64,000 nucleotides of DNA. Source: Amycolatopsis benzoatilytica AK 16/65 (GTDB taxonomy: Bacteria > Actinomycetota > Actinomycetes > Mycobacteriales > Pseudonocardiaceae). Position 1 is the first letter of the stretch, and every line of letters begins with the position of its first letter. A program made the translations under genes and the position numbers. The DNA lies in contig NZ_KB912942.1 of assembly GCF_000383915.1 (NCBI RefSeq), positions 8,512,470 through 8,576,469 on the forward strand, read 5' to 3'. Positions 18,293 to 54,982 of the stretch are shown here, one piece after another. The notes under the pieces are model-generated. The model saw nothing but the letters and a program-made list of their open reading frames with translations. It searched no databases and was not told the origin of the DNA.

Positions 18293-18370
18293 CCCAATGC
18301 CACATTGGGTGCATCTAACGCACCGAATGCCACATTGGGTGCGTCGGATGCAGCGAATGCCACATTGGGG
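18293..18370. repeat. 17-13-17-13-17 palindromic array, copy 1
   Basis: Three 17-bp units close to CCCAATG-CCA-CATTGGG start at 18293, 18323 and 18353. They are separated by two 13-bp spacers (TGCATCTAACGCA and TGCGTCGGATGCA) that are themselves near-palindromes. It lies between convergent membrane-protein and GNAT genes. A second copy with the same architecture is at 54905. Confidence 0.85.
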
Positions 18371-18396
18371 TGGCCGGGTGGGGTAGCTCCCGGGGC

Positions 18397-18879
18397 TCAG
18401 GCTTGCTTGGCGAGGGTTTTGAGCGGATCGTCGGTCAGCCGGTACACGGACCATTCGTCCTGCGGCAGCGCGCCGAGCGCCCGGTAGAACCCGACTGCCG
18501 GGTTCCAGTTCAGCACCGACCATTCCAGGCGGTGGTAGCCCTTGTCGACGCATTCCGCCGCCAGCGTCGCCAGCAAGACCTTGCCCAGGCCCGAGCCGCG
18601 CTGTTCCTCGCGGACGTACAGGTCCTCCAGGTAGATCCCGTGCGTTCCGCGCCAGGTCGAGAAGTTCAAGAACCACAAGGTGAATCCGGCGACCTGGCCG
18701 TCCACCTCGGCCACGTGGCCGAACAGTGCCGGGGCTTCGCCGAACAGCGCGGAGTGCAGCTGTTCGGTCGTCAGGTGGCATTCCTGCGGCGCGCGTTCGT
18801 ATTCGGCCAGCGCGTAGACCAGCTCGACGACGGCTTCGACGTCGTCCGGCCGGATCCGCCGGACGCGGGGGTCGGTCAC
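18397..18879 (-). CDS. GNAT N-acetyltransferase, diamine/thialysine acetyltransferase-like
   Basis: The 160-residue GNAT protein transfers acetyl from acetyl-CoA to an amine. The acetyl-CoA pyrophosphate loop is REEQRGSGLGKVLL near 90-103. Motifs resemble the spermidine/spermine N-acetyltransferase branch: LAEYERAPQECHLT near 23, TWRGTHGIYLEDLYV near 75 and LEWSVLNWNPAVGFYRALGA near 118-137. It starts at GTG 18879, 1 base after the histidine phosphatase gene ends, so both are one transcript. M. tuberculosis has an acetyltransferase remnant at the equivalent locus (Rv3216). Confidence 0.88.
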   Translation of the reverse strand: MTDPRVRRIRPDDVEAVVELVYALAEYERAPQECHLTTEQLHSALFGEAPALFGHVAEVDGQVAGFTLWFLNFSTWRGTHGIYLEDLYVREEQRGSGLGKVLLATLAAECVDKGYHRLEWSVLNWNPAVGFYRALGALPQDEWSVYRLTDDPLKTLAKQA

Positions 18880-18880
18880 G

Positions 18881-19471
18881 TCATCCCTCCAACGCGGGCA
18901 GCAGGTTCAGGTGTTCGATCTGCGGTTCGCCGCGCTCGTCGCCGAGCACCGCGAGGCCGGCCGGGTCGAGTCCGAAGTGGACACCCGCGGTGCCGGGCAG
19001 GCCGAGCCAGCGCGCGACGAGCACACGGCTGAAATGCCCGTGTCCCACCAGGACCACGTCGCCGTTCTCGATCTCGCGGCGGGCTCGGTCGAGCACCTTG
19101 TCCGCGCGGGCCTGGACGTCCGCCACGCTTTCGCCGCCGGGGACCGGGCGGGTCCACACCGTCCAGTCCGGGACGGTTTCGCGGATGGTCGCGGTGGTGA
19201 TGCCTTCGTAGTCGCCGTAGTCCCATTCGGCGAGTTCGTCGGCGACCTCGTCCACGCGCAGCCCGGCGAGTTCCGCCGTGCGCAGCGCTCGGGTGCGCGG
19301 GCTGGACAGCACCAGCCCGGGACCGCCGAGCAGGGTGCGCAGGGTGCCGCCCGCCGCGCGTGCCTGTTCCTCGCCGGCCGGGGTCAGCGGGATGTCGGTG
19401 CGTCCGGTGTGCCTGCCGTTCGACGACCATTCGGTCTGGCCGTGCCGGAGGAGAAAGAGCCGATGTGCCAC
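18881..19471 (-). CDS. Histidine phosphatase family protein (Rv3214-like)
   Basis: A 196-residue branch-2-like phosphoglycerate-mutase-fold phosphatase. The catalytic His is in FLLRHGQTEW at 6-15, the Arg in SSPRTRALRTAEL near 57, the Glu in AEWDYGDYEG near 80-90, and the second His in LVGHGHFSRVL near 140-150. All catalytic residues are present. It is homologous to M. tuberculosis Rv3214, which was annotated as gpm2 but acts as a broad acid phosphatase. Its stop sits just before the downstream acetyltransferase start, so both genes are co-transcribed. Cytoplasmic. Confidence 0.93.
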   Translation of the reverse strand: MAHRLFLLRHGQTEWSSNGRHTGRTDIPLTPAGEEQARAAGGTLRTLLGGPGLVLSSPRTRALRTAELAGLRVDEVADELAEWDYGDYEGITTATIRETVPDWTVWTRPVPGGESVADVQARADKVLDRARREIENGDVVLVGHGHFSRVLVARWLGLPGTAGVHFGLDPAGLAVLGDERGEPQIEHLNLLPALEG

Positions 19472-19557
19472 GCGGCCGAATATAGCCGGGGCGGGTTTGC
19501 CCGGCAGGTCCGTCGTATGCTTGGCTACTCGTGAGTAACTTCACCTGGGAGGTGCTG

Positions 19558-20034
19558 ATGGGTTCGCCCTCGACGTACGCGCTGTGGCGCAAGCTGGTCG
19601 CCAAACCCGGCGGCAAGCAGCTGTTTTCCGCCGCCATGTGCCTGCGGGTGCCCTACTTCGGCACCGTCTTGCCGAGTGTTCGCGAGCTGCGGCCCGGTCA
19701 CTGCACGGTCGCCGCGCCGAAGTGGTGGGGTGTCCACAACCACATTCGCACCTTCCACGCGATCGCTGCCTGCAACCTGGCCGAAATCGCGATGGGAATG
19801 CTGGCCGAGGCCACTGTGCCGGACACGCACCGCTGGCTGCCCAAGGGCATGGAAGTGAGTTACGTCGCGAAGGCCGAGACCGGGCTGCGGGCGATCGCGG
19901 AACTGCCCGAGCTGCCCGAGTTCGGCGACGCCGGATTCGATCTTCCGGTTCCGGTGCGGATCGTGGACAAGGCCGGCACCGAAGTGGTGACCGCGACGAT
20001 CACGGTGTGGGTCACCCCCCGGAAAGCGGCCTGA
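19558..20034 (+). CDS. Hotdog-fold thioesterase (DUF4442)
   Basis: The 158-residue protein belongs to the DUF4442 branch of hotdog thioesterase-like proteins. The block SVRELRPGHCTVAAPKWWGVHNHIRTFHAIAAC has the helix and Asn/His region expected of that family, and the protein ends in the strand VVTATITVWVT. The ATG at 19558 follows GGGAGG by 5 bases and is preferred over a GTG at 19531 in the same frame. It probably acts on acyl-CoA or acyl-ACP thioesters, although DUF4442 members are poorly characterised. It diverges from the histidine phosphatase pair. Confidence 0.82.
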   Translation: MGSPSTYALWRKLVAKPGGKQLFSAAMCLRVPYFGTVLPSVRELRPGHCTVAAPKWWGVHNHIRTFHAIAACNLAEIAMGMLAEATVPDTHRWLPKGMEVSYVAKAETGLRAIAELPELPEFGDAGFDLPVPVRIVDKAGTEVVTATITVWVTPRKAA

Positions 20035-20157
20035 CCGGCAAATCCGGCACCGCGAGCTGCCCCGGTCGGGTGAAACTTAACACCGTTTACTGGGCAAACG
20101 CGAATACTGTTCGCCTTGACCTTGTCAGGGCGCGCGGCACCGGGCCAGCATGCTCCG

Positions 20158-53693: not shown

Positions 53694-53709
53694 GTTAGCG
53701 CTCGCTAAC
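53694..53709 (+). promoter_or_regulatory. TetR operator upstream of its own gene
   Basis: Perfect palindrome GTTAGCG-CT-CGCTAAC, 21 bases before the TetR start codon. It matches the two sites before the carboxylase operon at 55009-55052 in the outer GTTA...TAAC arms. Confidence 0.75.
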
Positions 53710-53730
53710 CGGCGGACCTACTATTGGCGG

Positions 53731-54321
53731 ATGTCGGTGAACTCCACCCCACTGGTGAACGGTGCGAAGGCGAACCGCCGGGAACAAATCCTCACCGCCG
53801 CCGCCGAGCTGTTCGCCCATCACGGCTTCCACGGCGTCGGCATCGACGACATCGGTGCCGCGGTGGGCATCTCCGGGCCCGGGCTGTACCGGCATTTCCG
53901 CAGCAAGGACGCCATTCTCGGGGAGATGCTGAACTCGATCAGCCACTTCCTGCTCGAAGGCGGCACCGCGCGCGCCGAGGCGGGCGGCACCCCGGACGAA
54001 CTGCTCGCCGCGCTGGTCCGGTTCCACGTCGACTTCGCTCTGGATCACCCGGCGCTGATCACCGTGCAGGAGCGGAACCTCGCGAATCTCACCGACGGTG
54101 ACCGCAAACAGGTGCGCGCGCTCCAGCGCCAGTACGTCGAGGTGTGGGTGCGCGCCATCCGGGAAGCGGTGCCGGGCCTGGGAGAACGCCAGGCGCGCTC
54201 GGCCGCGCACGCGGTCTTCGGCCTGATCAACTCGACGCCGTACAACCGCCATCTCGGTGACGGCGAACTCGCTGAACTGCTGTGCCGGCTCGCGCTGGGT
54301 GCGCTTTCCTCGGCGGCTTGA
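53731..54321 (+). CDS. TetR-family regulator of the acyl-CoA carboxylase operon
   Basis: A 196-residue TetR repressor. The DNA-binding domain (about 15-60) has REQILTAAAELFAHHGFHGVGIDDIGAAVGI and the recognition helix SGPGLYRHFRSKDAIL. The C-terminal ligand domain (about 80-196) has the RNLANLTDGDR block. An identical-arm operator lies upstream of the gene itself and twice upstream of accD, so it very likely represses the acyl-CoA carboxylase/dehydrogenase operon, with a CoA ester as inducer. M. tuberculosis BkaR (Rv2506), which controls a branched-chain amino acid operon, is the nearest known analogue. Confidence 0.92.
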   Translation: MSVNSTPLVNGAKANRREQILTAAAELFAHHGFHGVGIDDIGAAVGISGPGLYRHFRSKDAILGEMLNSISHFLLEGGTARAEAGGTPDELLAALVRFHVDFALDHPALITVQERNLANLTDGDRKQVRALQRQYVEVWVRAIREAVPGLGERQARSAAHAVFGLINSTPYNRHLGDGELAELLCRLALGALSSAA

Positions 54322-54373
54322 GCCCCGGATCCGGGGTATCCCCCCGGCCGCCGGTCTGGTGTTTGATAGGCAC

Positions 54374-54871
54374 GTGACCGCGGACCGGAGCGAGGGCGAG
54401 CAGCGACTCGTCGAGAAGGCGCAGCGCGCGCTCGTCGCCATCAGCCTTGGCGAGGACGAGGAAGCGCTGGAAGAGGTCACGTCCACTGCCTCGGAGCCCG
54501 GCGAGCGCTCTGAGGAGACGAAGGAGCTGATGCTCCTGCTGTTCGGCGAGTGCAGCGCGATGGTGTCCACCCTCGGCGACGGCGGGACGGCCCCGGTCAA
54601 GGTGCAGGTGTTCGACGAGAGCGGCGAAGAGGTCTCGATCGACCAGGCGGACCCGCCGGTGCGCACCGCGGTCCGGACGCTGCTGGCCGAGGTGCACGGC
54701 AATACCGCGGCTGCGCGGGAGCAGGTCGAGATCGCGTTGGCCAGCGCGGCGCCGGACGAGGTGGACAGCCTGCTGCTGCAGGCGCTGCGGTGGACCATCC
54801 GTCTTTCGGTGGAATGTCTGGAGCGGGATCTGCCGGTGGCCGGCTGGATCTCGGACGCCGTCGCCGGCTGA
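54374..54871 (+). CDS. Hypothetical helical acidic protein
   Basis: A 165-residue acidic protein of no known family. The content suggests alpha helices throughout: RLVEKAQRALVAISLGEDEEALEEV, KELMLLLFGECSAMVSTLG, KVQVFDESGEEVSIDQADPPVRTAVRTLLAEVHGN and a C-terminal VDSLLLQALRWTIRLSVECLERD. No membrane segment, signal peptide or catalytic motif is visible. The GTG at 54374 gives MTADRSEGEQRL and fits the frame change after the TetR stop. It is between the TetR gene and the accDA operon; a role there is unproven. Confidence 0.7.
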   Translation: MTADRSEGEQRLVEKAQRALVAISLGEDEEALEEVTSTASEPGERSEETKELMLLLFGECSAMVSTLGDGGTAPVKVQVFDESGEEVSIDQADPPVRTAVRTLLAEVHGNTAAAREQVEIALASAAPDEVDSLLLQALRWTIRLSVECLERDLPVAGWISDAVAG

Positions 54872-54904
54872 ACCTCCCCGCTCGCTTCACCCGCCCGTGA
54901 CCGC

Positions 54905-54982
54905 CCCAATGTGGCATTGGGTGCATCTGACGCACCCAATGTGGCATTCGGTGCGTGTGACGCACCCAATGCCACATTGGGG
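54905..54982. repeat. 17-13-17-13-17 palindromic array, copy 2
   Basis: Three 17-bp units start at 54905, 54935 and 54965. Units 1 and 2 read CCCAATG-TGG-CATT(G/C)GG and unit 3 reads CCCAATG-CCA-CATTGGG, so the central triplet is inverted in two of them. The 13-bp spacers are TGCATCTGACGCA and TGCGTGTGACGCA. It lies just upstream of the carboxylase promoter; compare the copy at 18293. Confidence 0.88.

Follow-up and report, generated by a model that had tools for sequence, protein, structure and literature searches.

REP/BIME-like palindromic arrays near gene 3' ends in Amycolatopsis

The window, a stretch of 64,000 nucleotides from Amycolatopsis benzoatilytica AK 16/65 (contig NZ_KB912942.1), carries two palindromic arrays, which on balance are probably copies of a dispersed REP/BIME-like element of Amycolatopsis that most likely acts as a two-sided 3'-end signal and spreads as whole arrays. 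This reading draws on features established by sequence comparison and predicted folding, namely the number of copies, their position at 3' ends, their capacity to fold into hairpins, the near-identity of some arrays at separate loci and the inversions in place, and on the presence of another predicted hairpin at most orthologous convergent gaps that lack an array. A stronger form of it, possible but doubtful, is that a mobile array, without Y1/RAYT, would invade and replace bidirectional terminators throughout the genus, inverting in place by single units as well as in its entirety.

Three other explanations bear on the same evidence. The arrays might be a purely selfish REP/MITE-like repeat without any role, accumulating after stop codons since insertion there is harmless and using its hairpin for its own mobility, which appears rather unlikely. 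A narrower version of the preferred reading, also unlikely in our estimate, limits the arrays to 3'-end protection or processing, with termination by another route (e.g., Rho) and a hairpin that blocks exonucleases. The least probable is an operator array, at which a regulator or chromosome organiser would bind cooperatively at the 30-bp, three-turn spacing.

The two arrays of the window

Both arrays were found where a sequence-only reading had placed them, each with three 17-bp units in an exact 30-bp period, separated by two quasi-palindromic spacers of 13 bp; the starts at 18293 and 54905 stood, and the ends were moved from 18370 and 54982 to 18369 and 54981. The unit CCCAATG-NNN-CATTGGG held with the exceptions that units 2 and 3 of array 1 start with CCG and GCG and that unit 2 of array 2 ends with CGG, and the central triplets read, as described, CCA, CCA, CCA in array 1 and TGG, TGG, CCA in array 2. 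Array 1 (18293..18369) has its units at 18293-18309, 18323-18339 and 18353-18369, with the 13-bp quasi-palindrome TGCATCTAACGCA as first spacer (18310..18322) and TGCGTCGGATGCA, also 13 bp but of opposite polarity, as second (18340..18352); flanks included, it is predicted to form one hairpin. Array 2 (54905..54981) has units at 54905-54921, 54935-54951 and 54965-54981 and 13-bp spacers at 54922..54934 and 54952..54964. No strand is assigned to arrays or spacers.

Genes were called with a simple codon-score caller. Array 1 indeed lies in a convergent gap, between a predicted plus-strand gene (17770..18252; 160 aa, without Pfam match) that ends 40 bp before the array and a minus-strand GNAT acetyltransferase gene (18397..18879) whose end is 27 bp past it. 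The description of array 2 as lying just upstream of an operon promoter was misleading, since the array is located 33 bp past the stop of a co-directional predicted gene (54374..54871, plus strand; 165 aa, without Pfam match) and 87 bp before the predicted start of a carboxyltransferase gene (PF01039; 55069..56682, plus strand). At ≤3 mismatches the window contains 6 unit matches, compared with a mean of 1.5 and a maximum of 5 in 100 shuffles; no Rfam family was detected within it at gathering thresholds, and no terminator-like site was detected in 54800-55100, around array 2.

Copy number and conservation of the array family

A relaxed unit pattern matched 158 times in the 8.7-Mb genome of this strain versus 0 times with the reversed control. 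The matches formed 53 clusters, from which one lone chance-like match was removed, leaving a near-complete set of 52 arrays that includes the two of the window (a further site, at 5458021, lies outside the set). An array usually comprises three 17-bp palindromes in 30-bp phase, and this period is kept in 51 of the 52 arrays, rather than the unrelated spacing that had been named as evidence against a common design; nor is the motif absent from relatives, as it occurs at ≤1 mismatch in 53 of 80 genomes of the genus, this one included. In unit statistics covering 51 arrays (one with an irregular step was left out), the outer arms (CCCAATG...CATTGGG) were intact in 98 of 102 cases versus 160 of 220 for inner arms, and such best-kept ends, as candidate terminal repeats, would suit a selfish repeat. 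The same is true of near-identical arrays at different loci: three-unit arrays differ on average by 9.7 of 77 bases, and the closest 25 of 666 pairs differ by 1-5, suggesting spread of whole arrays, although these small differences overstate how recent the copying was because most arrays share the stem letters that make up approximately 42 of the 77 positions.

The fixed period, the conserved dyads and the species-typical sequence variants that the arrays carry could be expected of an operator array. However, a fixed period is not specific to operators, because tandem duplication of a 30-bp unit also produces one. Moreover, unit number is variable, with up to 8 unit matches in one orthologous gap, and across the genomes most similar at the window loci the matches drop from >100 (G223, G344, G318, G307, G311 and the strain itself) to 5-16 (G305, G309, G273 and G321), counts in which variants with >1 mismatch would be missed; both observations argue against an operator. 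A CRISPR was rejected because the array 'spacers' belong to one shared family, and counts of repeated 11-mers in syntenic regions, mostly coding-like background, were uninformative.

Placement relative to genes

Forty-eight of the 52 arrays lie outside predicted ORFs (the other 4 overlap them), and 43 occupy convergent (20) or tandem (23) gaps; 5 are found in divergent gaps, where arrays are under-represented. Relative to 338 non-array gaps, 52 of which are convergent, arrays are enriched in convergent gaps (odds ratio 3.9, p 8e-5), and in 22 of the 23 tandem cases the upstream stop is the nearer gene boundary (median distances 32 and 113 bp). This 3'-end placement and the few divergent gaps speak against an operator and leave a promoter role unsupported, as do the promoter-side motifs GTTAACG...CGCTAACGT at the site of array 2 (locus 2), which persist in relatives without the array. 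In the locus-2 comparison (24 of 30 retrieved loci), the array is, among the matches listed, present in G344 and G307 and absent from G318, G223 and G273, with flanks 93-97% identical. Such differences in presence are in line with a selfish repeat, and absence from orthologous sites of close relatives that, among the matches listed, retain the promoter-side motifs counts against an operator.

Predicted hairpins of the arrays

On both strands, each window array is predicted to form a single long hairpin (-61.5 to -68.5 kcal/mol; z from -7.7 to -10.1), and in predicted folds of all 52 arrays the outermost arms pair together in 86 of 104 array-strands; that a whole array can fold in this way is a further point against an operator. 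The long hairpin is not accompanied by clear covariation, since only 16 of 37 three-unit arrays have complementary outer triplets and adjacent spacers resemble each other mostly in direct orientation (40 direct versus 12 inverted, 7 ties). A strand bias expected from GU pairing was rejected for tandem arrays, whose sense-strand spacers have the reverse trend (A/C 26 versus G/T 15), arguing against the RNA-pairing prediction.

A T-rich tract is found within 14 nt of an end in only 4 of the 52 arrays, so the arrays are not classical intrinsic terminators. This scarcity is consistent with a restricted function in 3'-end protection, and PMC1525189 attributes mRNA stabilisation to REP elements while questioning whether they act as specific terminators; what weighs against such a restriction is that, in relatives, classical terminators stand at some array sites.

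Hairpins in gaps without an array

In convergent gaps of the strain's own genome, a significant hairpin was predicted in 28 of 44 array-less gaps, and of the 18 array-bearing gaps that could be analysed (20 in total) 1 had a second hairpin (Fisher p 2e-5), although a second hairpin is less likely to be detected beside an array because the leftover gap sequence is short. Array-less convergent gaps of ≤70 nt had a hairpin in 6 of 12 cases, and array-less divergent gaps in 14% of 77. Of the 90 orthologous gaps given by 15 loci and 6 relatives, 69 were anchored on both sides. Forty of these were convergent and comprised 7 with an array, 2 with one unit, 24 with another hairpin, 4 with none and 3 of <16 nt, i.e., another hairpin in 24 of 31 array-less gaps, which lends no support to an operator. 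This substitution pattern leans heavily on three loci (800599, 5711806 and 8388774), which supply 17 of the 24 hairpins: five relatives carry textbook terminators with A-tract and T-tract where this genome has arrays 800599 and 8388774, and six carry a GC hairpin where it has array 5711806. Both the exclusivity within gaps and the alternation of array and terminator at some orthologous sites argue against a merely tolerated selfish repeat, as tolerance predicts neither.

Tandem gaps are more favorable to a selfish origin. Those lacking the array in relatives included 6 without a hairpin, 6 with one and 3 of <16 nt, so that some arrays, including that of locus 2, occupy gaps in which relatives lack a terminator hairpin. 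At locus 2, a short GC inverted repeat in five array-less relatives resembles a replaced terminator on inspection, but its predicted fold is no more stable than those of shuffled sequences (p 0.125-0.585); the idea of a replaced terminator was rejected there, and this result strengthens the selfish explanation and slightly weakens both the preferred reading and its stronger form.

Inversion and mobility of arrays

Array presence, unit number and orientation differ between related genomes at orthologous sites, as the variation check proposed earlier had asked. The suggestion that units have flippable polarity was borne out in 59 unit comparisons (20 array pairs, 9 loci), which revealed 16 exact triplet inversions versus 4 single-base changes, with 39 triplets unchanged. 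Nine of these 16 inversions come from array pairs whose alignment improves when one array is inverted entirely, and array 2 is itself wholly inverted in G344 (12 differences in direct versus 3 in inverted alignment). At locus 955339, the array of this genome and of G307 lies between duplicate 21-base stretches, and five array-less relatives have this stretch once, suggesting a flanking duplication at this locus alone and supporting a selfish repeat.

The search for a parent transposase covered the Y1 family only. The Y1 transposase (PF01797) was matched in 0 of 12 genomes of the genus, this one included, versus 5 of 14 control genomes, on which ground a RAYT mobiliser was rejected; among the six nearest predicted genes of each array, no protein family (>40% identity) occurred at more than two array loci. 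Both results count against the selfish repeat. Two arrays simply have neighbouring genes in common. Complementarity of flanks, considered as a sign of hairpin insertion, was no greater in paired flanks than in shuffled flank pairs.

Possible mechanism and implications

The element looks like a spreading, flippable gene-end repeat rather than a front-of-gene control site, because its hairpins follow gene ends, where relatives often have another hairpin. Under the preferred reading, transcription from either side would cause the array to form one long RNA hairpin that may end or cap transcripts, so that at gene ends, convergent or co-directional, it could terminate transcription or stabilise the ends of transcripts and could substitute for a resident terminator. 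Arrays would spread as wholes, presumably by copying, and it is possible for single triplets and entire arrays to invert in place because the repeats are inverted and nested, perhaps via hairpin or template-switch intermediates.

If arrays do end transcripts, terminators would be turned over by repeat invasion, and a selfish element would also be a housekeeping signal. Amycolatopsis species are antibiotic producers, and a spreading gene-end hairpin would affect operon delimitation in these organisms. The presence/absence series at locus 2, together with the inversions, may offer natural alleles for palindrome movement and flipping, from bacteria in which the Y1/RAYT enzyme was not found.

Comparison with known systems

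The unit strings appeared in no paper, and no title or abstract start matched the repeat, in a literature coverage from which subscription journals are mostly absent; 23 satellites are given for Amycolatopsis mediterranei in PMC6749651. Bidirectional transcript ends are reported for Streptomyces clavuligerus, with a count of 55 (PMC8269248). Like bidirectional intrinsic terminators, the arrays place a strong predicted hairpin between convergent stops and shortly after a stop codon, and relatives have features of this kind at some array sites; unlike such terminators, 48 of the 52 arrays have no T-rich tract within 14 nt, and all belong to a repeated sequence family with internal 30-bp periodicity. 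Inverted ends (CCCAATG), dispersed near-identical copies and presence/absence between relatives are reminiscent of MITEs, but target duplication is suggested at one locus (955339) alone and, within the Y1 family searched, the parent transposase was not found.

In PMC3733652, REP/BIME elements (GTAG and CGTC superfamilies) are high-copy, short intergenic palindromes, often clustered, found for the most part close to 3' ends between ORFs that converge or share a direction, and varying in number between related species; the CGTC class is described there as having no dedicated transposase, and actinobacteria receive 0 mentions. A REP-finding tool paper (PMC12306157) gives counts for three Actinomycetota. 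The arrays differ from REP/BIME in having no GTAG/CTAC inside or adjoining (0 of 52; one array of the 52 has a GTAG or CGTC immediately beyond an end), in the lack of a Y1 family match in the 12 genus genomes, in their ability to fold entirely into one hairpin and in their inversion in place. TGCGTC occurs in 60 of 220 inner spacer halves. Our best reading of these comparisons is that, without REP tags and without a Y1 transposase in the genomes searched, the Amycolatopsis arrays nevertheless resemble REP/BIME elements as high-copy, short intergenic palindromes near 3' ends in convergent and co-directional gaps.

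Arrays in the window and across genomes

Two matching arrays, each of three 17-bp palindromic units (CCCAATG-NNN-CATTGGG) set at 30-bp steps with 13-bp spacers, were confirmed at 18293-18369 (array 1, in a convergent gap) and 54905-54981 (array 2, in a tandem gap). They are members of a dispersed set and not a private pair: a relaxed unit pattern matched 158 times in the genome (8.70 Mb, one contig, with the window at 8512470-8576469), and its reversed control gave no match. Among 52 collected arrays, 38 have three units, seven have four, five have two and two have six, and the 30-bp phase is kept by 51. 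In these 51 arrays the central triplet is CCA 86 times, TGG 74 times and CCG once, and CCCAATG is intact in 98 of 102 outer arms and 160 of 220 inner arms. In the long arrays of fetched loci L179, L180 and L186 several inner units are identical, which suggests that the 30-bp repeat was amplified locally in tandem. Another locus (L187:4617-5111) holds two arrays about 420 bp apart (genome positions 5575216 and 5575634), the first of which has an irregular 43-bp step resembling duplication of part of a unit.

Three of 297 family genomes carry an exact 20-base pattern, and 53 of 80 genus genomes a 17-base pattern with at most one mismatch (the window's own genome counted in both). The 17-base pattern matched 1 to 239 times per carrying genome, and the lowest counts may reflect chance. 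Some genus genomes have specific unit variants, such as AACGCCACATTGGG. Among named species, carriers include Amycolatopsis dendrobii, A. nivea, A. jejuensis and A. coloradensis as well as Prauserella shujinwangii. Loci of the own genome resemble those of named Amycolatopsis at up to 94%, on which its placement in this genus rests. At least seven array sites (L172, L178, L194, L197, L198, L200 and L206) are common to the own genome and named species, whose loci had been found through their arrays.

Placement at gene 3′ ends

The 52 arrays lie in 20 convergent, 23 tandem and five divergent gaps, and four overlap predicted ORFs. Set against 338 gaps without arrays in the same sequence stretches, of which 52 are convergent, arrays are over-represented in convergent gaps (odds ratio 3.9, p 8e-5) and under-represented in divergent ones (p 0.028). 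In 22 of 23 tandem cases the upstream stop codon is closer than the downstream start (medians 32 versus 113 bp), a rule that array 2 fits, being 33 bp past a stop codon and 87 bp ahead of a carboxyltransferase start. This placement is that of 3′-end signals, not of operators. The four overlapping arrays (6259603 at L194:5004-5080, 7460235 at L202, 7272717 at L209 and 5575634 at L187, named by genome position) reflect either gene-call errors or arrays within coding sequence; 6259603 is found at the same place in A. dendrobii (L019). Separately, the motifs GTTAACGGCCACTAACAT and GTTAACGACCGCTAACGT precede the carboxyltransferase gene (55009-55054) and are retained in relatives whether or not these have the array; they are possibly the real regulatory site of this operon, upstream of which lies a TetR-family gene (53731-54321).

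Arrays in place of other hairpins

In convergent gaps, arrays stand in for hairpins. In the fetched stretches of the own genome, a significant hairpin was present in 28 of 44 array-less convergent gaps versus one of 18 remainders of array-bearing ones (Fisher p 2e-5; the 18 of 20 convergent arrays that could be examined), a contrast somewhat overstated by the shortness of the remainders; among array-less convergent gaps no longer than 70 nt, six of 12 had one. The corresponding proportions for array-less divergent and tandem gaps were 14% of 77 and 31% of 150. We also surveyed 15 array loci outside the window, drawn from 25 with close predicted genes on both sides, in six relatives, where 69 of 90 orthologous gaps were anchored on both sides and shorter than 450 nt. 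The 40 convergent ones comprised seven arrays, two single units, 24 with another hairpin, four with no hairpin and three below 16 nt, and the 29 tandem ones 13 arrays, one single unit, six with another hairpin, six with none and three below 16 nt. Three loci provide 17 of the 24 convergent cases with another hairpin: the sites of 800599 and 8388774 carry textbook terminators (A-tract, GC stem, T-tract) in five relatives each, and that of 5711806 a GC hairpin in six.

At the site of array 2, 24 of 30 returned loci were used and 15 were anchored (own genome plus 14 relatives). The own genome, G344, G307 and G311 carry the array. In its place a short GC inverted repeat stands in G309, G273, G223, G321 and G305, and a possible array remnant in G318; sequence in the remaining five is unrelated, and two of these have flanks about 1.4 kb apart. 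The GC repeat showed no folding advantage over shuffled sequences (p 0.125-0.585), so that replacement of a terminator was not demonstrable at this tandem gap. Array 1 was absent from all 23 relatives anchored at its locus (six further relatives were not anchored), and, read by eye, at least nine of them carry different long palindromes there, which fall into recurring types (G309, G340, G327 and G348; G337, G313, G310 and G315; G350).

Predicted folding

Each window array is predicted to form one hairpin on both strands, in which unit 1 pairs with unit 3 and unit 2 lies at the tip (-61.5 to -68.5 kcal/mol, z -7.7 to -10.1), and 0 of 200 shuffles folded as well in each of the four folds. The outermost arms are paired together in 86 of 104 predictions (52 arrays on both strands). 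Clear covariation was not seen when triplets, spacers and strand composition were compared: counting against it, outer triplets are opposite in just 16 of 37 three-unit arrays, and adjacent spacers show direct likeness in 40 cases versus inverted likeness in 12, with seven ties. Sense-strand spacers of tandem arrays (A/C 26 versus G/T 15) count against the expectation from RNA pairing.

Probable spread, inversion and possible role

The best-supported reading is a 3′-end role, in termination or transcript protection, which we consider somewhat probable. That the arrays are a purely selfish repeat comes next and appears rather unlikely to us. Spread of whole arrays is suggested by close matches between loci: among 666 pairs of three-unit arrays, the 25 most similar differ at 1-5 of 77 positions (mean over all pairs 9.7), and arrays 4798542 and 6666292, at different loci, differ once over their whole length; about 42 of the 77 positions are stem letters common to most arrays, so that this contrast rests on the remainder. 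Array presence varies among relatives whose flanks are 93-97% identical. A 21-base stretch occurs on both sides of array 955339 (own genome and G307) and just once at that place in five array-less relatives, which hints at duplication on insertion.

Among 20 equal-size orthologous array pairs at nine loci, 39 triplets are unchanged, 16 exactly inverted and four altered by single bases (pairs with a genome in common are not independent), and nine of the 16 inversions come from pairs whose alignment improves when one array is wholly inverted. Array 2 in G344 is an in-place reverse complement of the own array (12 differences direct, three inverted) with flank orientation unchanged, and array 5826847 is likewise inverted between the own genome and G223 (13 versus four). 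Such exact triplet and whole-array inversions at orthologous sites show that array polarity flips, most simply, we infer, through a switch of strands inside nested inverted repeats. The flippable polarity proposed in the sequence-only reading is thereby borne out. A promoter role is not supported, as arrays lie at gene 3′ ends. The suggestion of cooperative protein binding in that reading gained no positive evidence; the arrays are dispersed 3′-end hairpin elements.

Comparison with other palindromes and known systems

A second palindrome family of about 55 bp (GTCCGTGAAGG...CCTTCACGGAC and variants) occupies five convergent gaps of the window (11156-11320, 23936-24078, 30434-30639, 47830-47944 and 52687-52764) and recurs in relatives in a similar kind of place. 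Further recurring intergenic palindromes in syntenic regions of relatives (L275-L314) and in L227, L238, L242 and L221 include CGTGAGTG...GGTTAGAACC...CACTCACG, GATCACGCGAG repeats and CCCGAAAGTGGCTTTCGGG, the last (in G350) with the TGG centre of array units and different arms. The favoured family differs from genome to genome.

Classical intrinsic terminators were rejected because a T-rich tract is close to only four of 52 arrays; a hairpin-terminator study carries the section heading 'Presence of poly A/U trails is not necessary in genomes' (PMC8355165). The arrays behave like repetitive extragenic palindromes (REPs), but the GTAG tag occurs in none of the 52 arrays, an end tag of either kind (GTAG or CGTC) in one, and the REP-associated Y1 transposase in none of 12 genus genomes, and we therefore do not file them as REPs. 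Earlier work reports bidirectional transcript ends in Streptomyces clavuligerus (PMC8269248), locates REPs near ORF 3′ ends in convergent and co-directional arrangements (PMC3733652), and mentions proposals of attenuator and mRNA-stabiliser roles for REPs while doubting a specific terminator role (PMC1525189).
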